From Microbacterium sp. Root61 (lineage in GTDB: Bacteria; Actinomycetota; Actinomycetes; Actinomycetales; Microbacteriaceae), in NCBI RefSeq assembly GCF_001427525.1, contig NZ_LMGU01000001.1, positions 372,001 to 436,000 of the forward strand: a stretch of DNA of 64,000 bases, given 5' to 3'. The notes below the pieces were generated by a model, which was given only the letters and a program-made list of their open reading frames with translations, was not told the DNA's origin and made no database searches. A program made the translations under genes and the position numbers. Position 1 is the stretch's first letter. The number at the start of each line of letters is the position of its first letter. Shown piece after piece: positions 1 to 10,798 of the stretch.

Positions 1-1731
1 AAGGCGATCGAGGACCGCGCCGAGATCACTGGATCCCAAACTGATCTGGGCTCAGCACTGACGGAGTATCTGGCAGCCATGCGGGTGGATACGGCGGCCC
101 CGATGGATCGGTGTGTCGCAGCGATGAGGGCGGCCGCCCTGTCGACCGCCCAGGATGCCTCCGCCTGCTATGCGGAGGCCATCACGCTCCTCCCTTCCGT
201 CCTCCAGCCCTGGCTCGATCGAACCGACACACTGGCGCGCGTCGCGGCGCTCAGCGGACTCGGCATGAATGCCGCCGCGGCGTACCTCGCGACTGACCAG
301 CCGCGACAGGCGCTGTCGGCTGTGGAGCACGGACGGGCTCTCACCCTCAGCGGGCTCATTCAGCTTCGTGGTGACTTCGACAAGCTCCAAACTGCACATC
401 CAGAGACGGCAGATCGCCTGAGTGCGCTGCTGAAGGTGCTGAATGCTCCGCGAAAACTACGCGCCGCAGACGCTGCACGGGACCTCTCGGCACAGGAGAA
501 CAGTCGACGCCGTGAGGCGCAATCCCAACTCACGCCTGTCCTCGAGCGGATCCGAACTCAGCCAGGTTTTGAGCAGTTCTTCTTGCCTCCCGACCCTGAC
601 CAACTGGTCGCAGGTGGGCGGGAGGGGCCGATCGTAGTCGTGAATGTCGCGCGCACGCGTTGTGACGCACTCGTGGTCAATGACGGCGATGTGGACGTGG
701 TCGAGCTCAAGGACCTCACAGCTGCTGACTGTGCAGACGCGGCCATGGCCCTGCTCAGTGCTACCGATCAGCTATTTGCCCCAGATGTACCCGATAAGGC
801 GTTCGCCGCGGCAGAGGCAGACCTCATCCGCCTACTTGCTTGGGCGTGGGACCGGATCGCCGATCCCGTTCTGACACACCTCGGGTTCTCTGCACCGAGA
901 TCGGATAGCGAGTATGGCGCCTGGCCTCGCATCTGGTGGGTTCCGACCGGTCCCCTCACGGTCTTCCCGATGCATGCGGCCGGGTATCACTCTGCCAGTA
1001 ATGCCGGGGAGCCGGCGCGCGAGCGGACGGTAATGGATCGTGTCGTCTCAAGCACTGTGCCTTCGATCAGTGCGCTCCTTCACGCTCGGACGCGGCCTCT
1101 CGCCGACCTTCAACCGCGCGCTCTTCTGCTGGCGATGCCGACCACCCCTGGGCTCCCCGAACTCGAAAGTGTGATTGACGAAGTGGAGCGTGTGGCACGG
1201 CTGATCCCACGCGCAGACGTCACGATGATTGGGGTCGATCCATCTCAGCAAACCGGCGAGCCTTCGCGGCGAACCGTGCTCGGGCTACTCCCGACGCACG
1301 CGTGGACGCACTTCGCGTGTCACGGCGAGGCGAACCCCACCGACCCGGCAAAGTCAAACCTCGTCCTCGCCGATCACCAGAGTGACCCGCTGACGGTCGA
1401 GGACATCGTCGGGCTGAAACTGGAGCAGGCACAACTCGCATACTTCTCCGCGTGCACTACCGCGCGCCCGGGTCGCAAGGTGCTCGATGAACCCGTCCAC
1501 TTCGCTGCGGCGGCCCTTCTCGCTGGTTATCGGCACGCCATCGGCACATTGTGGCCGATCCCCGATCGTCCCCATTCTGCCGAGACTATTTACCGGATCC
1601 TGTCCTCGGATGGATTCGACTGGACGGCGGCCTCAGCTGCAGTTGCGGTTCACACTGCAGTGCATGGAGAGCGCCGAGCCTTCCCAGACCAACCCCAATA
1701 TTGGGCTGCACTCCTGCATCAAGGCCCGTAG
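1..1731 (+). CDS. CHAT-domain protease, N-terminally partial
   Basis: The frame is open from the first base, so the true start lies upstream; the first ATG in view is at 79. Numbered from that ATG, the first ~110 residues are alpha-helical and resemble tetratricopeptide-type repeats. A charged linker follows, then a CHAT domain (caspase HetF-associated, clan CD protease) over roughly residues 215-550. The candidate catalytic pair is visible: His415 in HFACHGE and Cys459 in FSACTTA. CHAT proteins are activated proteases in bacterial conflict and cell-death systems; substrate and trigger cannot be read here. A hydrolase and a caspase-like gene follow on the same strand after a 196-bp gap. Base composition looks less GC-rich than the core genes, fitting an island. 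The domain call is firm; the defence role is inference. Confidence 0.85.
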   Translation, partial: KAIEDRAEITGSQTDLGSALTEYLAAMRVDTAAPMDRCVAAMRAAALSTAQDASACYAEAITLLPSVLQPWLDRTDTLARVAALSGLGMNAAAAYLATDQPRQALSAVEHGRALTLSGLIQLRGDFDKLQTAHPETADRLSALLKVLNAPRKLRAADAARDLSAQENSRRREAQSQLTPVLERIRTQPGFEQFFLPPDPDQLVAGGREGPIVVVNVARTRCDALVVNDGDVDVVELKDLTAADCADAAMALLSATDQLFAPDVPDKAFAAAEADLIRLLAWAWDRIADPVLTHLGFSAPRSDSEYGAWPRIWWVPTGPLTVFPMHAAGYHSASNAGEPARERTVMDRVVSSTVPSISALLHARTRPLADLQPRALLLAMPTTPGLPELESVIDEVERVARLIPRADVTMIGVDPSQQTGEPSRRTVLGLLPTHAWTHFACHGEANPTDPAKSNLVLADHQSDPLTVEDIVGLKLEQAQLAYFSACTTARPGRKVLDEPVHFAAAALLAGYRHAIGTLWPIPDRPHSAETIYRILSSDGFDWTAASAAVAVHTAVHGERRAFPDQPQYWAALLHQGP

Positions 1732-1927
1732 GGACAGACGGAACGATCCTGCGGGCGCGAAAACCACCACGGGACGGGCGGCGCGGCCATCAGAGCACGC
1801 CGGTGCTGACCGTTCCCCGCTTGCGGCTCGGTGCCAACCCCGACATCGCGCAACATCGGTGCGCTCTCATCACCTGATGGACGACCGCCCTCTGGCGCGG
1901 GTGCGGTGTGGATGCTATTTGTATTCC

Positions 1928-2788
1928 ATGTCACGCATCATCGGTGTGCACGGAATGGGCGCGCAACAGGTCGGCAGCGACCAGCTATCAGCGGACTGGC
2001 GACTCGCGCTCAGGGGGGGACTGCGAAAGGCAAAGAGGCCCGACCTCGCAGACGGGCTGAGCGACAACGACGTTCGCGTCGTCCACTATGGAGATCTCTT
2101 CTTCGACCCGAACTCGATGGGCGACACACCGTCGGTTTCTGACCTGACAGAGGCGGATCGTGAGATGTTGCGGCGGCTGTATGAGGCGGCGCTAGAACGT
2201 GATCCCGGGCTGGGTGCGTCGGAAGGCGGAATGGGCGCGGTGGGGTTTCCCCCGATCAACGCGATTCTTCGGAAGCTCGTATCATCCCGATTCTTCGGAG
2301 GAGTGACTCAGCGGCTGTTCATGGGGAACTTGCGGCAGGTGAATAGATTCCTTGACGACCCTGCGCTCAAGAGCCGCGTCTTTGATCGAATGGACGAGCT
2401 GGTTACGATTGGCACCCGCGTCATCATTGGTCACTCGCTCGGCTCGATCGTCGCGTATGAGTACCTATGTGCCCGTCCCCTGGAAACCCCCGTAAAGTTC
2501 CTGACGATTGGGTCGCCGCTTGGTATGCGGAACGTGATCTTTGACAGGCTCACCCCAGCACCGAGGAACGGCAAAGGGACATGGCCCTCGGGGGTCAGTT
2601 CCTGGACCAACGTGGCGGATACGGATGACATAGTTGCGCTCGAACAGAAACTCTCAGGACGATTCCCCCACCCACCCGGCCTCGACAAGATCGACGACCG
2701 TCTTGTCAACAATGAGGATGAACCCCACAGTGCCGAGAGGTATCTGGTGAAGACAGTCGTCGGTGAGTCGCTCGCCAAGGCCTTGTGA
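1928..2788 (+). CDS. alpha/beta hydrolase (lipase/PGAP1-like serine hydrolase)
   Basis: A 286-residue protein with an alpha/beta-hydrolase start (VHGMG near residue 8, an oxyanion-type loop) and a nucleophile elbow GHSLGS with Ser170. A late Asp and His that could complete the triad are present (DTDD region and EPHSAER). The ATG at 1928 is chosen because homology-like sequence begins there; the frame is open back to 1487 and no strong ribosome-binding site is visible, so the start is uncertain. The stop overlaps the GTG of the downstream caspase gene by 4 nt, implying translational coupling. Such hydrolases occur beside CHAT and caspase genes in actinobacterial conflict loci, possibly as lipase effectors. 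It could instead be an unrelated esterase; no signal peptide is seen. Confidence 0.75.
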   Translation: MSRIIGVHGMGAQQVGSDQLSADWRLALRGGLRKAKRPDLADGLSDNDVRVVHYGDLFFDPNSMGDTPSVSDLTEADREMLRRLYEAALERDPGLGASEGGMGAVGFPPINAILRKLVSSRFFGGVTQRLFMGNLRQVNRFLDDPALKSRVFDRMDELVTIGTRVIIGHSLGSIVAYEYLCARPLETPVKFLTIGSPLGMRNVIFDRLTPAPRNGKGTWPSGVSSWTNVADTDDIVALEQKLSGRFPHPPGLDKIDDRLVNNEDEPHSAERYLVKTVVGESLAKAL

Positions 2789-4191
2789 CAGCCCGGGACG
2801 CAGGTGGAGGGAGCAGCCGGCGGTTCGTCGTCGCTGGCACCTCGACGTATGCGGATACGTCTTGGCCACAGCTCAACGGCGTTGCAGAGTCGATCGACAT
2901 AGTCGCCGACGCATTGGGGCGGCTTGGACTCCGTCCGGACGGTGGCAAGGGGGCTCCGGGCGGACGAGTTCTGAACGCCAAGATCGGCGCACTGCTCCGG
3001 CGAATCGAGCATGCGGCGCGGAGTGCCGACGTCGTCGCGCTGTACTTCACCGGGCACGGACACAGTGCCAGTCGGATCGGCTACCGGCTTGTTCTCACGA
3101 ACTCGACTCGCAAAGATCTCGCAAATACCGCGCTCGCCCCCAGAGACCTCCTGGACAAGTTGGTGCGAGTCGATGAGTATGGCGATCCTGTCGATAAGCA
3201 GCCCCAAATCCTCTGCGTCATCGACGCGTGCTACGGCGGCCATGGTGCCCTCGAGGCGCTGCGATCATCGCTTCAAGGCGTGGGATTGGACACCGTTTGG
3301 TTCTTGGCATCCGCGGCCCCGGACGACGAGGCCCTGGATGGGCGATTTGCTGAGGCGTTCGCGAAGGCCCTGGCGGGCGTGCTCGATCGCCCTCGTGCTG
3401 GCCCCTCGCAGGAATACATCGAACCGGTGGAGCTGAGAAACGCAATCAATAACATCCTTGATGCCGGCGGAGTGCAGCAGCGCGCGCACCTCTGGCCGGC
3501 TACGGCCGGTGCCGATCAGACGCCCCCGTTCATCCCCAACTCGCAATACCAGCCGCCGAATGATCCGACGGCCGTGGATGACTCACGGAGGAGGCTTAGA
3601 ACCCGTCATGCTGCGGAGAGCATCTGGTCGTGGACGGCGGAGAGCAACGAGGGAGTACGGATGCGGATGATCGTTGACGAGCTGGTTCCGCCAGCGACCC
3701 CCTCGCGAAGCCTCGTCAGCGCGTTGGCATGGGCCAAAGGCGACGGGCTGCCCTGGGGCGCGGTTTGGGTGCCCGTCGCGAAGGCGATCGCCCGAACGGT
3801 CGGGATCGAGGAGAGCACTGTGTCGGCAATCACCGACGAGGCTGTGCGGCGACTGCTCCGTGATGCGCGCGAGTTGATCGTCGAAGGGATAGGACCCGGT
3901 GATCTGTCGGTCTTTAGGCTCACTCACCCCTCGATGTCCGCGTTGATCCGAGATGATGCTCCGGCGCGGTTCACACATTCCCGCAGCGCGGCCTCCGATG
4001 TGGAGTCGGCGATAGCTCATGCGCTCATAGCGACAGTTGGCGAAGACAACAATCAGATCGACTGGCCCAATGCTCACCCATATGTGATGAAGTACCTGCT
4101 GACGCACGTTGAGCTGGCCAGTGACGCGTCGACGCTGACCCGCGAACTCCGCGACGGCGGATTTCCGGGCCCGTTTCCGGGAGTTGTTTAG
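2785..4191 (+). CDS. caspase-like (peptidase C14) protein with C-terminal STAND-type winged-helix segment, no NTPase core
   Basis: The GTG start at 2785 overlaps the previous stop (GTGA). Residues ~10-250 form a caspase-like domain with the clan CD dyad visible: His91 in YFTGHGH and Cys149 in VIDACYGG. Residues ~300-460 match the winged-helix region that follows a NACHT/STAND NTPase in long actinobacterial WD40 or TPR proteins (ALAWAKGDGLPW, then FRLTHPSMSALIR, then NAHPYVMKYLLTH). No P-loop NTPase lies between the two parts, and the protein stops just where repeats normally begin. It is therefore an internally deleted or naturally minimal version. Together with the CHAT protein and the hydrolase it suggests a protease-based immune or cell-death module. 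The caspase call is strong; the winged-helix call is from remembered family patterns. Confidence 0.8.
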   Translation: MTARDAGGGSSRRFVVAGTSTYADTSWPQLNGVAESIDIVADALGRLGLRPDGGKGAPGGRVLNAKIGALLRRIEHAARSADVVALYFTGHGHSASRIGYRLVLTNSTRKDLANTALAPRDLLDKLVRVDEYGDPVDKQPQILCVIDACYGGHGALEALRSSLQGVGLDTVWFLASAAPDDEALDGRFAEAFAKALAGVLDRPRAGPSQEYIEPVELRNAINNILDAGGVQQRAHLWPATAGADQTPPFIPNSQYQPPNDPTAVDDSRRRLRTRHAAESIWSWTAESNEGVRMRMIVDELVPPATPSRSLVSALAWAKGDGLPWGAVWVPVAKAIARTVGIEESTVSAITDEAVRRLLRDARELIVEGIGPGDLSVFRLTHPSMSALIRDDAPARFTHSRSAASDVESAIAHALIATVGEDNNQIDWPNAHPYVMKYLLTHVELASDASTLTRELRDGGFPGPFPGVV

Positions 4192-4425
4192 TAACACAGC
4201 CACGAAGTGCGCCAAGCTCGGCTCCGACCGTTCGGCCGCGAACCGTGGGCGGTCTGGTCGGCCTCAACCGCGCGCGCGTCAAAAAGTGACGTGGGGGATG
4301 TGTGAACAACGGTGTGAACAAATGAGGAGGTGGAGTGCAGCCGTAGAGCAGTGCTTGAGAACTCGGCACCCGCGTGATTTCAGGGGAGTGCAGGGCGCCC
4401 GAGATCGAGTGCAGGCGTTGGGGTC

Positions 4426-4452
4426 AGGGGTTCGAATCCCCTCAGGACCACC
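4426..4452 (+). mobile_element. tRNA 3'-end fragment, putative attachment site (att)
   Basis: A perfect T-arm is present: stem AGGGG (4426-4430), loop TTCGAAT (4431-4437), stem CCCCT (4438-4442). It is followed by a 3' acceptor strand CAGGACC (4443-4449), discriminator A (4450) and CC. No matching GGTCCTG 5' strand lies upstream, so only the 3' end of a tRNA gene is here. Integrases commonly recombine at tRNA 3' ends, leaving such a copy at the far edge of the inserted island. The adjacent terminator and the change of gene content on either side support this. The tRNA identity is unresolved; the A discriminator argues against tRNA-Asp. Confidence 0.65.
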
Positions 4453-4457
4453 GAAGG

Positions 4458-4485
4458 CCTCCGGTTCGCCGGGGGGTTTCGTTTT
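4458..4485 (+). terminator. Rho-independent terminator after the tRNA fragment
   Basis: A 7-bp stem CCTCCGG / CCGGGGG (one T-G pair) with a TTCG loop spans 4458-4475 and is followed by a T-rich tail to 4485. It sits where the terminator of an intact tRNA gene would be. Confidence 0.7.
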
Positions 4486-4515
4486 CCTCCGGCGGTGACG
4501 ATCCGGTGCTTCGGA

Positions 4516-4818
4516 TCACTTCGGCCCCAAATCGACGCCATCTGCAGGTCTGGGACCCCGGCCGCGCCGGATCAACACCAGGATCGTGATGGCCACGACC
4601 ACGACGAGAGCACCGAGCCAGATCCACAAGGACGTGCGGAGGCCGACGAGCGACCACTGAGTGATCTGGCAGACAGACATTCCGCTCGAGGTTGCAACCG
4701 CACACCAGCCGTCCTCGTGCACCGGTGCGAGCAGGAGTGAGACGACGACCACAGCAAGAACTCCAAGCCAGATCACCCCGGCAGCCGAGGGGCGACGAGT
4801 GGGCACGGTGACCGCCAA
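4516..4818 (-). CDS. small two-span membrane protein, unknown function
   Basis: A 100-residue protein with a TTG start at 4818 (an in-frame GTG lies four codons in, at 4806). Two hydrophobic helices are clear, ~12-31 and ~63-82. They are joined by a loop with two cysteines (WCAV...SVCQ) that could form a disulfide outside the membrane. A basic, proline-rich C-terminal tail follows. No family is recognised. It is the first gene on the chromosomal side of the putative island boundary and is divergent from the three-span membrane protein at 4909. Confidence 0.55.
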   Translation of the reverse strand: MAVTVPTRRPSAAGVIWLGVLAVVVVSLLLAPVHEDGWCAVATSSGMSVCQITQWSLVGLRTSLWIWLGALVVVVAITILVLIRRGRGPRPADGVDLGPK

Positions 4819-4908
4819 TCAGCTACTTGAGTGCTCGGGTGTTCAGCTCGAAGAGTTGCACGGCCCCAGCCTAGGGTCGAGGCGGGCGGCGAAAGGAGAG
4901 GACCTGTC

Positions 4909-5229
4909 ATGACGGCAGTAGCCGAACGATGGTGGTTCGCCTTCCTGTTGTGGGCCTCACTCGGTCTGGTGTTTCTCCTCGGTGGCATCATTCTGGTGTG
5001 GTTCGCGATGGCGCACATCGATTGCGCCGGTTGCACGACCCGACCAAAAGACACCGCCCTCACCATGTACTTCGTCGCGGGGCTGGGAATCATCCTCGTC
5101 ACCGCGATCGTGGCCGCGGCAACGACCGATCGAATCCCTGCTCGCCGCGTGCTGATCCCCGGGCTCGGCCTCCTTCTCCTCACTCTGGCGATCTGTTTCG
5201 TGATTCTCCTCAGTTCCCTCCCCGGCTGA
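4909..5229 (+). CDS. small three-span membrane protein, unknown function
   Basis: A 106-residue protein with three hydrophobic helices, roughly residues 8-34, 51-72 and 80-104, and a CAGC motif in the first loop. The ATG at 4909 is chosen because an AAGGAGAGG ribosome-binding site lies just upstream (4893-4901). The frame is open further back to 4831 but that part looks non-coding. No family is recognised. The divergent neighbour is another small membrane protein of unknown role. Confidence 0.6.
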   Translation: MTAVAERWWFAFLLWASLGLVFLLGGIILVWFAMAHIDCAGCTTRPKDTALTMYFVAGLGIILVTAIVAAATTDRIPARRVLIPGLGLLLLTLAICFVILLSSLPG

Positions 5230-5722
5230 CCGACGCGATTGCCTGACCCTCAGGCGCGCCGAATGCCCCCATCTCTGGACCTGAACAGCCCTGGCCGGAA
5301 CCGGCTCCGAGAAGTGCCTCTCCAGGCGGTCACACTATGGTCGCGCCCGGGGGGGTAATGATGCAGGCGAGCGAGGCGCGCTGGTCCTGCTCTACAGAGC
5401 ACATTTGTACTTGCCACACATGAACGCCACCGAGGGCGATGTACCGCCTGCTTCGGTTCCGCTCCCGGCGGATGCCAAGATCCTCCGAGCTGGTTGGTGC
5501 GACGTCGCAGCTGGAGACCCCGGAGACTTCCTCGATCCGCGCTCGACCTGGGTGTCGGCAAGACCAGCAGACGGGGTCCTGACGCTCATTCTCGACTACT
5601 GGTCCGAGGAGTGGGCTGCCGTAGCAGGGAATGCGCGAATTCGTGCCACGATTGCGACTTTATGGCGTCACCCAATGGATGCTGTTTGGCTCGATGCACC
5701 TGTTCCGTGCAGGCTGAGACAT
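5230..5722. other. 493-bp stretch without a confident gene; possible ORF remnant 5405-5722
   Basis: A reading frame from an ATG at 5405 (or 5420) runs in frame into the lipoprotein gene at 5723. Its ~100 residues (containing GWCDVAAGDPGDF and ILDYWSEEWAAVAGN) look protein-like but match nothing I recognise. It may be the start of a longer protein, a degraded gene, or chance. The part 5230-5404 shows nothing. Confidence 0.3.
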
Positions 5723-6187
5723 GTGGATCGGCGAGTCAGAACTCTGTATGCGGTACTTCTGGGAACGCTTGCGATCGCCCTGGCCGGCTGCACCTTGCTG
5801 GATGGTGAGGCCACCCCGGTGATGCCCCCTTCGCCTTCTTCGATTGCGACACCGACCGCCGAGCCTTCTCCGCCCGAGACTCTCGTGGCAACACCGCCTG
5901 ACGCCGAGAAGCCGTTGGGTGAAATGTCGTCGGTGCGAGGGACGGATCAGATCGGCCCATTCTCGAGCGCATCCGGGCATGTCTTCGTCTACGTCAATTG
6001 CTACGGCACCGGCATCGTGACCGTGGAACTCGTGGGTTCCGCGACGATCACTCAACAATGTCTGCCCGATGCAAACGATCCAGGCACACGCAACAAGATT
6101 CAAGCGCTCACGCCCGAGGAGATTGTCGTGCGGGGTACCGCCGAGAATTCCAACCTATGGGCTATCGCCGTCACAGATACCGAGTAG
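5723..6187 (+). CDS. putative lipoprotein, unknown function
   Basis: From the GTG at 5723 the 154-residue product has a standard lipoprotein signal: basic start (RRVR), hydrophobic core, and lipobox ALAGC with Cys23. A Pro/Ser/Thr-rich linker (~30-60) is followed by a ~90-residue extracytoplasmic domain with two cysteines. The frame continues upstream to 5405, but a start there would bury the lipobox inside the protein, so the GTG is preferred. Function unknown. The next gene is also a lipoprotein with a similar low-complexity linker. Confidence 0.6.
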   Translation: MDRRVRTLYAVLLGTLAIALAGCTLLDGEATPVMPPSPSSIATPTAEPSPPETLVATPPDAEKPLGEMSSVRGTDQIGPFSSASGHVFVYVNCYGTGIVTVELVGSATITQQCLPDANDPGTRNKIQALTPEEIVVRGTAENSNLWAIAVTDTE

Positions 6188-6313
6188 CCCAGACGGCAAT
6201 CGGATCTCGGCCGCGCATCGCCAGCGGGAGTCTTCGGGGCGGTCGAATGCCAGCGAGACTCCTGCGAAGAACGGCGCTGACGCGCGACGCATCCCTTCCC
6301 ATAATGTGAGGGG

Positions 6314-6913
6314 ATGCGGCGTCTGCAGAGTCTCATTGTCTTGTCGGTCACGGCTGTGTTGCTGGCGGGCTGTGCGACTGCCACGGCGGGGGCAGCGCCA
6401 GGCATCGGCGCCGAGCCGACACCGTCGAGCACATCCTCGCCCACACCGTCTCCTACCGCGACGATCGTGGATCCCGAGGCCGCCGCTAAGGCTGACTCGT
6501 GGCTCGAGGGTGCGGTTCTACCGCCCGGTACCGTCCGATCTGAGAACGTTCCGAGCACGACACCGCCGTTCGCGAACTCGTACTACCGCTGGCCGTGCTC
6601 GCCGATGGAACTGCGGACCGGCTACTGGACGCTCGAGGGCGCCAACGTTGTCGATACGGGGAACTGGCTCAGGGAGAATCCGACGGCGGGTCTGATCGCT
6701 TCGAACTCCTCGCCGTATTCCGGGGGTCCGGAAATCGACAGCCTGTCGCTCGGAAACGTTCCTGAGTGGGACTCGCTCGAAGGCATCGCCTACACGGTGT
6801 CGCGCACCTCAGACGGTGTCGCGATCCGTGCGGAGATCGGCGTCTTCATGACGGACACTGTCTGCACGCCGCCTCCGGGCGGCGGGATGTGGGGCGGCCC
6901 CGGACAGGGTTGA
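6314..6913 (+). CDS. putative lipoprotein, unknown function
   Basis: A 199-residue protein with lipobox LLAGC (Cys20) after a typical signal. A linker of Pro/Ser/Thr repeats spans ~35-55, then a globular domain of ~145 residues with Trp and Cys residues (YRWPCSP, DTVCTPPP). It ends in a glycine-rich tail. It is likely anchored on the outer face of the membrane. No family is recognised. It is one of several lineage-specific surface proteins in the 5-8 kb stretch. Confidence 0.7.
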   Translation: MRRLQSLIVLSVTAVLLAGCATATAGAAPGIGAEPTPSSTSSPTPSPTATIVDPEAAAKADSWLEGAVLPPGTVRSENVPSTTPPFANSYYRWPCSPMELRTGYWTLEGANVVDTGNWLRENPTAGLIASNSSPYSGGPEIDSLSLGNVPEWDSLEGIAYTVSRTSDGVAIRAEIGVFMTDTVCTPPPGGGMWGGPGQG

Positions 6914-6990
6914 TGCGACCGAGCTTGGACGAAGATGCGAAGTTGCGTGAGCGGCTCCGCAGCGAGCAATTCCGGGCGCGCCGCGTGAAG

Positions 6991-7341
6991 CTACGTCGCG
7001 TCGTGGATGAACTCGACGTCTTCGGCTGAGGCTTCGGCTCGGGCCTCCTCCGGAGCCTCAGGCTCGTGGACGAGATCGTCTTCGTCCACGATCTCGTGCA
7101 GCAGCTCGCGACCTCGGGTCGGATCCGCGATCGACTGATGAATGATGTCGCGAAGCGCAGCGTGAGCCTCGGGCCGGATCTCCTTGAGCGAGTCCTCGAC
7201 GATCGTCTCCAACTCCTGCTCGATCGCATCGGAGAGTTGGGGACCGGGGTATCGGTAGTGGCCGGGCTCGCTCCACATCGCCCAGCTGCCCACGCGGCGC
7301 GTGAGGTCTTCCCATTCGTCCAGGCTCAGGTGAACCGTCAT
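6991..7341 (-). CDS. small acidic hypothetical protein
   Basis: A 116-residue soluble protein starting at the ATG at 7341 (MTVHLSLDEWEDL). The frame is open upstream but the extra 63 residues look like out-of-frame sequence. It is helical and strongly acidic, with a long Glu/Asp/Ala-rich tail. No signal peptide, membrane helix or known motif is visible. The next leftward gene (7425-7898) lies 83 bp upstream and is probably co-transcribed. Function unknown. Confidence 0.55.
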   Translation of the reverse strand: MTVHLSLDEWEDLTRRVGSWAMWSEPGHYRYPGPQLSDAIEQELETIVEDSLKEIRPEAHAALRDIIHQSIADPTRGRELLHEIVDEDDLVHEPEAPEEARAEASAEDVEFIHDAT

Positions 7342-7424
7342 GGGACCATTTTCCCCCGCCGACCGGCCGGCTGCCAGACAGGTGCTTTGCACACGCCTCA
7401 GGTTCGGCGTCGGTGTCGGCGGCT

Positions 7425-7898
7425 TCAATTCCCGAGCCAGGGCAAATCGCTTGTGTCCACCCCGTGGCGGTGGTGCATCCGCCCGCCGTCGATGGGGGCC
7501 GTCTCGTGGCCGGCCAGCTCCTGCACCCACAGCGGCTGCTGCTCCATCGCCACCGAACCCGCGCCCGCCGTGAAGTAGGCGACGATCGGAGGGCTCGCGA
7601 CGAACTCGGCCGCGAAGGCACCGGCACCGCGGACGCGCACCAGGGCGTCGCGCGCATACAGATCGCGCATGAACACAGCGAACGCTTCGGGATCGTCGGA
7701 TGCCGGTTCCTTCGGCGCGACCGGCAATTGCGATCGCAGCTGGCCGAGCAACTCTGGACGCTGCGCCGCGGAAAGCCGAGCGAAGGCGGCGGCGTATGCC
7801 TTGTCGGCGATGCTTGCGGGAACGTTTCCCAATAGATAGGCATATCTCGCGATCTGCTCGTCTTCGCTGATCGCCTGCTGCTCGTGTCGCCTTTTCAC
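7425..7898 (-). CDS. hypothetical protein
   Basis: A 157-residue soluble protein with a basic start (MKRRHEQQ). The first ~70 residues are helical (ARYAYLLGNVPASIADKAYAAAF). A middle segment contains a phenylalanine-rich strand (VFMRDLYARDALVRVRGAG), and the tail is histidine-rich. I do not recognise the family. It is co-oriented with the small acidic gene downstream. Confidence 0.6.
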   Translation of the reverse strand: MKRRHEQQAISEDEQIARYAYLLGNVPASIADKAYAAAFARLSAAQRPELLGQLRSQLPVAPKEPASDDPEAFAVFMRDLYARDALVRVRGAGAFAAEFVASPPIVAYFTAGAGSVAMEQQPLWVQELAGHETAPIDGGRMHHRHGVDTSDLPWLGN

Positions 7899-8113
7899 GA
7901 TCCCTCCTGACTGATGAGGGTCAGAGTACGCCGACCGGAGCGCTCCGTCGACCGGTGTGCTGGGCGCAGATCACCCCGGCAAAGTCCAGGACTCCGGTCG
8001 GGAACTGTGGGGGTCGCAGTGTGTCGTCCCCATTCAGGATCCGCTGGCGGCGCCAACCCGTCAGGCGCGCTCACCGGCCTCGACGCCGGCACCCCATCGG
8101 CTAGCATTCTGGG

Positions 8114-8341
8114 ATGACGAAACCGCCTCCGATCGACGACGTCCGGATCGGCGGCGACGCCATTCGCCTCGGGCAGTTCATGAAGTTCGCGGGGCTCCTC
8201 GACTCCGGTGGAGACGTGAAAGAGGCCATCATCGACGGCTACGTGAAGGTGAACGGTGAGGTCGATCGCCGTCGCGGACGCCAGCTGCAGCTCGGCGATG
8301 TCGTGACGTTTGAGGGACGCGGAGTCCGCGTCTGCGAGTGA
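8114..8341 (+). CDS. S4-domain RNA-binding protein (YbcJ/YaaA type)
   Basis: A 75-residue protein that is essentially a single S4 RNA-binding fold. The hallmark segments are visible: IRLGQFMKFAGLLDSGGDVKEAI, then DGYVKVNGEVDRRRGRQL, then GDVVTFEG near the end. Stand-alone S4 proteins of this size bind structured RNA and often relate to ribosome assembly or tRNA. The substrate cannot be inferred. It is separate from the leftward pair upstream and followed by a GNAT gene. Confidence 0.85.
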   Translation: MTKPPPIDDVRIGGDAIRLGQFMKFAGLLDSGGDVKEAIIDGYVKVNGEVDRRRGRQLQLGDVVTFEGRGVRVCE

Positions 8342-8523
8342 GGTCCCGGGGTACACGACCCTGCGGCGAGCATTCTGCTGGGGTACGGCGCCTCGAGTCC
8401 GTACGGCCCGACATGGAATGAAGCGTCGTCCCCTGTCGTTGCTGATGTGGCTCGTGTGAATCGTCGTGGAAGCCGACGATGCGACCATCCGGCGAGCAAG
8501 AATGCAATCGGAGCATGCCCCTC

Positions 8524-9228
8524 ATGTCAGAAGCCCCAGCCCCTCATCTCGATGCCACCGTGCTCGACAACGCCGCGTGGCACGCGCTGTCCGGCGCTCA
8601 CGCACGCTTCGCGGAGGGCGACGATCTCGTGCGTCGGTACCATCCCGATGTCGCCCCGTTCGTCGCGGTGCGGAACTGGGATGACCCGCAGGTGTGGGAT
8701 TCGCTGATCGGGCTGGTCGGACACGGGGCGGAGATCGGTCTGTCCGGCGGCGTGCCCGAGTTCCCCGATGGCTGGGAGGAACTGTGGCGCGGCGAAGGGG
8801 TGCAACTCGTTGAGACGGACGCGCTCCACCCGGTGCCTGATCCGGAGGCTCTTCTCCTCGGGGAGGCCGACGTGCCCGAGATGCTCGCGCTCGTCGAACG
8901 CAACCAGCCCGGCCCGTTCCTGCCCCGCACGTATGAGCTCGGACGCTACATCGGGTTCCGTCGCGAGGGACGTCTCGTGGCGATGGCGGGGGAGCGCCTG
9001 CAGCCGAATGGGTGGACCGAGATCAGCGCGGTCTCGACCGACGATGCGTACCGCCGGCAGGGGTTGGCATCCCGGCTCGTGCTGGACGTCGCTTTCCACA
9101 TCCAGCAGCGGGGAGACCGCGCGCTCATGCACGCGTCGGCGACCAACGTCGGAGCGATCGCGGCCTACGAGCGCCTCGGATTCGCACTCCGCACCCGCAC
9201 GACATTCGCGGGGGTGCGCGTTCCCTGA
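8524..9228 (+). CDS. GNAT-family N-acetyltransferase (FR47-like)
   Basis: A 234-residue protein whose C-terminal half carries the GNAT acetyl-CoA fold. ISAVSTDDAYRRQGLASRLV is the typical motif A (R/Q-x-x-G-x-G/A pattern), and NVGAIAAYERLGF is motif B. The N-terminal half is variable and probably shapes the acceptor site. The ATG at 8524 is preferred over 8515 because a GGAG sequence (8510-8513) sits 10 nt upstream of it but only 1 nt from the other. The acceptor is unknown: small molecule, peptide or antibiotic are all possible. Confidence 0.8.
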   Translation: MSEAPAPHLDATVLDNAAWHALSGAHARFAEGDDLVRRYHPDVAPFVAVRNWDDPQVWDSLIGLVGHGAEIGLSGGVPEFPDGWEELWRGEGVQLVETDALHPVPDPEALLLGEADVPEMLALVERNQPGPFLPRTYELGRYIGFRREGRLVAMAGERLQPNGWTEISAVSTDDAYRRQGLASRLVLDVAFHIQQRGDRALMHASATNVGAIAAYERLGFALRTRTTFAGVRVP

Positions 9229-9252
9229 AGCGCGCGAGTCGGCGTGGGTTCC

Positions 9253-9393
9253 CTACACCGGCTCGGTCGTGCGGATCAGACCACAGTTCAGACACGACCA
9301 CACGACAATCAACCGCTCATCGTCGAAAATCTCGAACCGGAGAACGTCGCCGCAGGTCGGGCAGACTCGCGGATCCGGAGCATGCGCCTGCAT
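9253..9393 (-). CDS. 46-residue zinc-ribbon protein, copy 1
   Basis: A mini-protein with two CxxC knuckles (Cys11/Cys14 and Cys34/Cys37), a classic zinc-ribbon layout. It starts at ATG 9393 and ends at 9253. A second copy of the same length and about nine-tenths identical in sequence lies at 10131-10271 in the opposite orientation, so the GNAT gene at 9544 sits between an inverted pair. The function is unknown; such small ribbons may bind nucleic acid or act as structural zinc sites. Conservation of frame, length and all four cysteines in both copies argues that both are real genes. Confidence 0.7.
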   Translation of the reverse strand: MQAHAPDPRVCPTCGDVLRFEIFDDERLIVVWSCLNCGLIRTTEPV

Positions 9394-9543
9394 TTCGTCA
9401 GTCTGCGGGCGCGGCGCGGCGGCAGCCAGAGACAGACTGCGGGCGGCATTCCGCGCGACGCGAGGTCCGAGTACCGTGGAGTCCGCGCGGGGTCCTCGGT
9501 CGACAGCGGTCGGGCCTCCGACAGCTTGCGAAAGAGGTTTCCC

Positions 9544-10134
9544 ATGGGTGACTCGACGAGCTCGCACGTGATCAAGCCGCTCACGCCCGAGACCTTCACT
9601 GCGTGGCTGGCGCTCGCGCAGAAGCACAACGGGGTCTGGGGCGGGTGCTACTGCTCGTACTTCCACGGGGATACCGATCACACCGTCAAGCGTGAGTACG
9701 ACGGACCGACGTTCAAGCAGCGACTCGTGGCGGAGGGCATCGCCCACGCCGCGCTCGTCTTCGACGGCGACGACGCGATCGCGTGGTGCGAGTACGGCAG
9801 TCCGGTCGAACTGCCGAACATCTATCACCGCAAGCAGTACGACGCGGACGAGACCAAGCCGGCGCCGTGGCGCATCACCTGCTTCTTCGTCGACCGCGAC
9901 CACCGACGTTCGGGCGTGGCCCGCGAGGCGCTGGATGGCGCGCTCGACCTGATCGCGCAGGCCGGTGGCGGCGAGGTGGTCTCGTTCCCCAACGAGCTCG
10001 CTCCCGACAAGAGGACGTCATCCTCGTTCCTGCACAACGGCACGAGAGCGATGTTCGAGAAGGCCGGATTCACGTTCGAGCGCCACATCGGCAAGAGCAA
10101 GACTGTGATGCGCAAGACGGTGCTGCCGACGTGA
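9544..10134 (+). CDS. GNAT-family N-acetyltransferase
   Basis: A 196-residue protein. The core ITCFFVDRDHRRSGVAREAL is GNAT motif A (the acetyl-CoA pyrophosphate loop). A later segment, FLHNGTRAMFEKAGF, is motif B. The N-terminal part has GGCYCSYF, a Cys-rich stretch typical of this subfamily. The ATG at 9544 fits the family start; the frame upstream is shadow sequence. Its TGA overlaps the GTG of zinc-ribbon copy 2 by 4 nt, so the two are translationally coupled. The substrate is unknown. Confidence 0.82.
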   Translation: MGDSTSSHVIKPLTPETFTAWLALAQKHNGVWGGCYCSYFHGDTDHTVKREYDGPTFKQRLVAEGIAHAALVFDGDDAIAWCEYGSPVELPNIYHRKQYDADETKPAPWRITCFFVDRDHRRSGVAREALDGALDLIAQAGGGEVVSFPNELAPDKRTSSSFLHNGTRAMFEKAGFTFERHIGKSKTVMRKTVLPT

Positions 10135-10271
10135 ACGCGCATGCTCCGGATCCGCGCGTCTGTCCCACCTGCGGCGACGCTCTCCGGTTCGAGATCCTCG
10201 ACGATGAGCGATTCCTCGTGGCGTGGTCGTGTCTGAACTGCGGCCTGATCCGCGCGACTGAGCCGGTGTAG
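10131..10271 (+). CDS. 46-residue zinc-ribbon protein, copy 2
   Basis: The GTG start at 10131 overlaps the GNAT stop. The product has the same length and cysteine spacing as copy 1 at 9253-9393 (CPTCG and CLNCG knuckles). The DNA of the two copies is nearly the same over ~140 bp, in opposite orientation. Differences are mostly synonymous or conservative (for example Leu/Phe, Ala/Thr), which suggests that both remain under selection. Function unknown. Confidence 0.7.
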   Translation: MNAHAPDPRVCPTCGDALRFEILDDERFLVAWSCLNCGLIRATEPV

Positions 10272-10321
10272 CGAACCCCTCATCCCTTGCGCCCGCGCAG
10301 GCGGCCGAGGATGCTGGTCGA

Positions 10322-10798
10322 ATGACGGCTGTGACGAGCTTCCTGTGGTTCGACAACGACGCCGAGGCGGCGATCCGGTTCTACACGGATCTGATCCCGG
10401 GTTCGGAGATCGTCGAGCTGTCGCTGTATCCCGATGACGTCCCCGGCATGGGCGGCAAAGTGATGTCGGCGCAGTTCCGGCTCGCCGGCACCGACTACTT
10501 CGCGATGGATGCCGGGCCGCAGTTCCCGTTCACCGAGGCGATCTCGCTGTTCGTCTCGTGTGCGGATCAAGCCGAGGTCGACCGCTACTGGGACGCGCTG
10601 ACCGCGGACGGTGGCCAGGAGCAGCCCTGCGGGTGGTTGAAGGACCGGTGGGGCCTCTCCTGGCAGATCATCCCCGAGCGCCTCATCGCGCTGATCCGCG
10701 ACCCCGACCCGGCTCGCGCGCACAGGGCTGTGCAGGCGATGCTGACCATGTCCAAGATCGAGATCGCCGTGATCGAGGCGGCCGCAGCCGAGAGCTGA
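10322..10798 (+). CDS. VOC-superfamily protein (PhnB / 3-demethylubiquinone-9 methyltransferase-like fold)
   Basis: A 158-residue protein of the vicinal-oxygen-chelate fold, in the group often annotated as PhnB-like or 3-dmu-9 3-methyltransferase. Visible hallmarks are SFLWFDNDAEAAIRFY at the start, DYFAMDAGPQFPFTEAISLFV in the middle, and DRYWDALTADGG followed by CGWLKDRWGLSWQI. The annotated methyltransferase activity of this family is not established; most members are probable metal-dependent or binding proteins of unknown substrate. The downstream sugar dehydrogenase begins 2 nt after the stop, so the two are likely one transcript. Confidence 0.82.
   Translation: MTAVTSFLWFDNDAEAAIRFYTDLIPGSEIVELSLYPDDVPGMGGKVMSAQFRLAGTDYFAMDAGPQFPFTEAISLFVSCADQAEVDRYWDALTADGGQEQPCGWLKDRWGLSWQIIPERLIALIRDPDPARAHRAVQAMLTMSKIEIAVIEAAAAES

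Follow-up and report, generated by a model that had tools for sequence, protein, structure and literature searches.

A tRNA-Ala island in Microbacterium sp. Root61 carries a TPR-CHAT protease gene and a probable deletion derivative of a hydrolase and caspase-STAND-WD40 module

At the left end of a 64,000-nucleotide (nt) stretch of the Microbacterium sp. Root61 genome (assembly GCF_001427525.1, contig NZ_LMGU01000001.1, positions 372,001-436,000 of the forward strand; hereafter the window), three genes, all open on the + strand, encode a TPR-CHAT protease, an alpha/beta-hydrolase and a caspase-like protein. The window includes the 3' part of the TPR-CHAT gene (1..1731); the full gene (contig 370720-373731) begins 1,281 nt before the window and encodes a protein of 1003 amino acids (aa) with the catalytic dyad His868/Cys912. 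After a gap of 196 nt follows the hydrolase gene (1928..2788; ATG at 1928, 286 aa; Ser170, His267 and Asp231/Asp234), which overlaps the caspase-like gene (2785..4191; GTG start, 468 aa) by 4 nt, GTGA at 2785-2788. The latter gene encodes a caspase domain (~1-268, with His91 and Cys149) and a winged-helix/helical region (~302-460). The initial annotation of the window had described three same-strand genes, two of them coupled by a 4-nt overlap, that encode two different clan CD proteases with visible dyads and a serine hydrolase, and this description holds throughout: the CHAT protein matches Pfam CHAT (E=1.9e-34) and TPR_10 (E=2.2e-6), the caspase-like protein matches Peptidase_C14 (E=7.6e-6), and the hydrolase shows a match to Abhydrolase_6 that is below the cut-off (E=1e-4). 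The catalytic residues of the hydrolase, Ser170 (in the GHSLG motif), His267, Asp231 and Asp234, show no variation among 43 aligned sequences (42 of its 109 relatives and the window protein), and the same applies to His91 and Cys149 in 26 aligned caspase sequences. The CHAT dyad had been correctly recognized, with the numbering (His415/Cys459) counted from a downstream ATG.

The 109 relatives of the hydrolase were detected at E <= 1e-3 among 5.8 billion proteins; a sequence search of the Protein Data Bank (PDB) yielded no match for this protein and weak matches to MALT1 and metacaspases for the caspase family. The named hydrolase loci that we compared, the best 80 of 458 with flanks of up to 10 kb (shorter at contig ends), include those of Streptomyces, Nocardia, Mycobacterium, Amycolatopsis, cyanobacteria, Nitrosospira and Chitinophaga. 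In 73 of these 80 loci, a caspase-domain open reading frame (ORF) on the same strand overlaps the hydrolase ORF or lies within 400 nt of it, and 4-nt overlaps between the two genes are frequent; the remaining seven loci either contain no caspase in the available DNA (L009, L013, L015, L045 and L062) or have the caspase on the opposite strand (L054 and L077). Matches to the hydrolase were also found in 47 plasmid records, including a Rhodococcus ruber megaplasmid (L277) where the hydrolase gene precedes that of a 1645-aa WD40 protein with caspase and winged-helix regions, near recombinase genes. Four loci with the hydrolase come from viral contigs, two of them with a caspase match in the available DNA, and there were no matches in 50,697 phage records. 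In our genome surveys of the genus, a second genus and the class, where at most a handful of candidates were scored per genome, the hydrolase was present at 1e-40 in 69 of the 343 genomes of the second genus. Judging from these gene arrangements, the core of the locus is the pair of the alpha/beta-hydrolase and the caspase. Such pairing has already been published for VMAP proteins: Kaur et al. (2020, eLife, PMC7159879) state that the genes of caspase-type VMAPs are invariably accompanied by an adjacent alpha/beta-hydrolase gene, and they mention effectors of GTPase systems that are caspases or related hydrolases.

Several loci of the hydrolase family display other arrangements. On the Streptomyces plasmid NZ_CP120991.1 (L278), the module seems to be split: a caspase/ATP-binding protein is encoded between the hydrolase and a separate WD40 protein, and a further WD40 gene precedes the row. 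Among the hydrolase matches within the genus, the second best (L183, from genome G741) has on either side caspase-winged-helix ORFs that match weakly; three of these, of about 1,400 codons, occur within 14 kb. In yet another locus (L008:3535-5889), a hydrolase of the same family is encoded beside a caspase ORF that is fused to a Cpn60 chaperonin domain, the chaperonin being split over two ORFs.

The most conspicuous feature of the window caspase-like protein emerges from comparison with its counterparts in other pairs. Among seven caspase partners scanned with Pfam, six showed P-loop matches of the AAA, NACHT or nSTAND type, mostly below the cut-off, together with WD40-type repeats, and the seventh, from a cyanobacterium, combines the caspase with VMAP-M14 and VMAP-C. 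The window protein aligns to residues 59-307 of a Nocardia partner (37% identity) and then to residues 585-707 (44%), with the same pattern seen against six other partners, and in the alignment of 26 sequences the gap in the window protein opens immediately ahead of Walker A and closes immediately ahead of the winged-helix part. In 80 other pairs (those with a winged-helix region in the caspase protein, deduplicated by hydrolase DNA), the stretch between the caspase and the winged helix is 804-1113 nt long (median 969), compared to 153 nt in the window. This stretch contains a Walker A motif ([AG]xxxxGK[ST]) in all 80 pairs and a Walker B-like motif in 73 of them, and the stricter pattern G-x4-GK[ST], applied to the whole ORF, is found in 64; the window protein has neither Walker A nor a Walker B-like motif between the two domains. 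The stop-to-stop ORF is 474 codons long in the window against a median of 1480, and the protein ends directly after the helical region, with the C-terminal WD40 repeats absent.

On the evidence of these alignments, the window caspase-like protein derives from a caspase-STAND-WD40 protein by deletion of an internal part and of the C-terminal part. Therefore the lack of a nucleoside triphosphatase (NTPase), which the initial annotation had taken for part of an unrecognized combination, appears to be a secondary loss and not a new defence architecture. The lost parts were sought nearby. Relics of WD40 repeats 3' of the caspase gene can be ruled out, given that nothing of the relatives' C-termini was found in the 280 bp around the gene end, and a P-loop supplied from another place in the island or by a close paralogue is likewise rejected: Walker A occurs in no frame of the island described below, and the genome encodes no closely related caspase-STAND protein, with 10 weak P-loop matches (E 0.007-0.56) besides the two pieces in the window. 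Among the 8000 candidates scored, the search with the caspase protein returned only the protein itself, and no second P-loop-less caspase-winged-helix protein was found among the loci compared. The other short caspase partners are of different kinds: the caspase-chaperonin in two ORFs (L008), a caspase-STAND protein broken after Walker A (L023), cyanobacterial caspase-VMAP or untyped proteins, and frames cut by contig or locus ends.

The TPR-CHAT gene shows a different distribution. The CHAT protein has 229 relatives at 1e-3, the best of which, among the 120 matches listed, reaches 42% over the searched part. A related CHAT protein, as defined by the family profile, is encoded in the flanks of two of the 80 named hydrolase loci and in none of 27 wide loci from other genomes. 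One of the two, in Streptomyces hiroshimensis (L005), is a CHAT remnant that precedes the pair and is nearer to other CHAT proteins than to that of the window, the window CHAT ranking 96th of its matches among 120 sequences; the other is a CHAT gene about 9 kb away from the pair in Saccharothrix (L064). Conversely, no hydrolase or caspase of these families was found at any of 10 loci of CHAT relatives. In 394 genomes of the class, the hydrolase is present at 1e-15 in 51 and the CHAT part at 1e-40 in 42, with both found in 11, and the two lie within 5 kb of each other only in the genome of Microbacterium sp. Root61 itself, the next nearest being about 22 kb apart (G055). These counts rule out CHAT as a fixed third member and do not support the proposal that the trio forms one immunity or suicide unit, for which co-occurrence across genomes had been suggested as the check. 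Because CHAT and the hydrolase-caspase pair do not co-occur, the CHAT gene is most likely separate cargo that came with the island. A second CHAT-domain protein is encoded in the same genome (contig 3205276-3205947, in a frame of 840 codons) and is only distantly related to that of the island.

The trio fills a 6.06-kb island between the 3' end of a tRNA-Ala(GGC) gene and a second copy of this end. The tRNA gene occupies L003:16320-16395, and the CHAT gene starts 325 nt past it, at L003:16721-19732. The tRNA 3' end and the hairpin region behind it recur at a distance of 6,059 nt, on the + strand at window positions 4420..4487 (68 nt, 85% identity, the first 27 nt exact), an attR-like right end of the island. 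Rfam detects one tRNA at the locus, the left one, and therefore the right copy comprises the 3' part only. The composition of the trio (GC content at third codon positions of 0.69, 0.71 and 0.72) differs from that of ileS, obgE and proA (0.92, 0.89 and 0.85). Left of the tRNA, reading of the ORFs by sequence yields ileS, folC, ndk, RNase E/G, obgE, proB, proA, nadD and a VOC-type protein. The initial annotation had expected the remaining parts of the module in this direction and had placed the trio at an island edge; leftward of the window there are the rest of the CHAT gene, the tRNA and housekeeping genes, so no further module gene lies on that side, and the island is real, with its boundaries at the tRNA, about 1.6 kb to the left, and near 4487, not at the window edge.

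The VOC protein has matches in 31 of the 149 same-genus genomes searched, including the source genome, and tRNA-Ala(GGC) falls within the stretch at 10 of the 29 loci returned from the other genomes. At all 10 of these sites, the island DNA is absent (blastn at 1e-6), and the left flank is colinear. Among 366 genomes of the genus, 15 contain a hydrolase match at 1e-12 or better, with a close match (1e-109) only in the source genome and the next best at 1.7e-36. The locus thus has features of a tRNA-targeted integrative island: the tRNA 3' end forms direct repeats on both sides, and the island is missing from relatives. The comparison points to the horizontal acquisition of about 6 kb of DNA at tRNA-Ala(GGC). 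At one of the 10 same-genus tRNA sites (L145; 1-13759 after reversal), the first tRNA-Ala(GGC) is followed 13 kb on by another complete one, as if a different island had used the same site. To the right of the island, window positions 4488-10331, which hold a GNAT acetyltransferase gene (8479-9228) and genes for small possible membrane or lipoproteins, have no blastn match at two same-genus sites (L146 and L153), where colinearity resumes only at about 10.3 kb.

Among the closest known counterparts are the actinobacterial pairs of a hydrolase and a caspase-STAND-WD40 protein, such as those of Nocardia (L006 and L007) and Rhodococcus ruber (L277), which share with the window the hydrolase, the caspase, the winged-helix/helical region, the gene order and the overlap; the window protein differs from them in the lack of the P-loop region and the WD40 repeats. 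Our literature search, mostly of open papers, retrieved no report of this actinobacterial combination as a tested defence system, nor of a P-loop-less form. The VMAP ternary systems resemble the locus in that, according to PMC7159879, the gene of a caspase-domain protein adjoins one for an alpha/beta-hydrolase; in cyanobacteria, a hydrolase of the same family as that of the window (L012, 39%) is encoded beside a caspase-VMAP-M14-VMAP-C protein. However, the window protein has no VMAP match, the island contains no MoxR, vWA or VMAP genes, and the relatives are of the caspase-STAND-WD40 type. Kaur et al. 2021 (PMC8195603) further mention caspases close to AP-ATPases and to EACC1/EACC2 systems, and caspases near WD40 genes are noted in cyanobacteria (PMC5587647). 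The caspase domain is shared with the EACC1-associated caspases (NCBIfam NF047832; Kaur et al. 2020), but the score of 50.7 bits is far below the curated cut-off of 140, and no EACC1 gene adjoins the caspase gene, the neighbours of which are the hydrolase and the island end. Likewise, the TPR and CHAT layout is shared with Csx29/Craspase of type III-E CRISPR (NCBIfam NF041237; PDB 8d9f, 7x8a and others), with a local match of the CHAT part (30.3 bits; PDB E 2e-4, residues 865-949), whereas the score is far from the cut-off of 300 bits and the island encodes no Cas protein, the neighbours being the tRNA, the hydrolase and the caspase. The 2023 library of PADLOC gives a generic caspase model (26.3 bits, E 1e-6), nothing for the hydrolase and a weak PDC-M29B match (E 0.045) for CHAT. 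Of the earlier assignment to conflict systems of the kind described by Aravind and colleagues, what stands is the presence of clan CD proteases and a serine hydrolase on an island and the conserved hydrolase-caspase pair, which also appears in the cited passages of Kaur et al. 2020; CHAT as a partner does not.

Taken together, these observations suggest that DNA of about 6 kb was probably acquired at tRNA-Ala(GGC) and that this island now holds, beside a TPR-CHAT gene, a deletion derivative of the two-gene module of an alpha/beta-hydrolase and a caspase-STAND-WD40 protein. In intact copies of the module, by analogy with the family, the WD40 part would sense a trigger and the P-loop part would assemble the protein, bringing the caspase domains together; the coupled hydrolase would then be released or activated and damage the cell by lipid or ester hydrolysis, resulting in abortive infection or suicide. 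The copy in the window has lost the P-loop region and the WD40 part by in-frame deletion, so that the caspase is joined directly to the winged helix, and the catalytic residues of both enzymes are intact. The module is most likely recently truncated and not triggerable in the usual way, with the effector and the protease still encoded and their own switch and sensor gone; the order of events and the roles given to the intact modules are inferred.

Several observations weigh against this interpretation. The att assignment derives from the repeat, and no integrase is encoded among the listed ORFs of the island (the trio and overlapping frames; no search with integrase models was made). There is no frameshift or stop in the 468 codons of the caspase gene and no visible decay. 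The identity of the caspase is above the expectation from the hydrolase identity (residual +0.06, rank 92 of 96, where 0 is the most diverged) and the winged helix falls on the expected line (residual +0.002, rank 41 of 80), which rules out accelerated divergence of the caspase gene within a rough comparison, for which the window protein itself had served as the seed of the caspase and winged-helix profiles and some loci were counted twice. A long-dead relic would be more diverged than the neighbouring hydrolase, and since this is not the case, the lack of excess divergence would fit a recent deletion and, equally well, a shortened protein that is kept by selection.

A rival view is that the locus is a working, streamlined module of three genes, in which TPR-CHAT is the new sensor and activator that cleaves or scaffolds the P-loop-less caspase and the caspase acts on the hydrolase, an NTPase-free protease cascade. 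We consider it rather unlikely, although the trio comprises the only large ORFs of the island, on the same strand and with similar composition, all catalytic residues are intact, neither the caspase nor the winged helix is accelerated in the rough comparison, and the PDB match of the CHAT part (E 2e-4) is to chains of Craspase, whose TPR-CHAT proteins are reportedly protein-triggered proteases. Such a module is hard to reconcile with the rarity of CHAT at the hydrolase loci (two of 80 flanks, one of them the remnant related more closely to other CHATs and the other about 9 kb off) and the absence of the pair from the 10 CHAT loci, with the 196 nt between CHAT and the hydrolase, which imply no coupling, and with the lack of a second case of the short architecture among the matches listed or the 80 other pairs. 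Its specific version as a suicide module, in which TPR-CHAT has replaced both the STAND switch and the WD40 sensor and triggers the naked caspase-winged-helix protein, which in turn activates the lipase-like hydrolase, is unlikely. Alternatively, the P-loop-less caspase and the hydrolase might act alone, for example in a processing role that is constitutive or set off by stress, or as a decoy of the inhibitor type that mixes into the full-length STAND assemblies encoded by incoming elements. The pair is intact and coupled by 4 nt, and the winged-helix region is retained; this explanation is nevertheless very unlikely, given that the genome encodes no full-length relative to mix with and that a second example of the short form was not found among the loci compared. 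Finally, WD40 repeats tend to collapse in assembly, and the gene could in reality be full length, with the deletion created by the assembler. An artefact of this kind is extremely unlikely because the non-repetitive P-loop region is missing along with the repeats, the chromosome is a single 3.5-Mb contig of a genome that is 99.9% complete, and the island runs on into the right-hand tRNA copy.

An apparently new combination of a CHAT protease, a hydrolase and a caspase without an NTPase would thus be explained by the loss of two domains from a widespread, little-described actinobacterial module of a hydrolase and a caspase-STAND-WD40 protein, which gains a clear anatomy from the 80 other pairs. 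Should the short form prove active, it would represent a natural 'switch-less' caspase, from which one could learn which part of such proteins killing depends on and whether an NTPase can be replaced by a CHAT protease.

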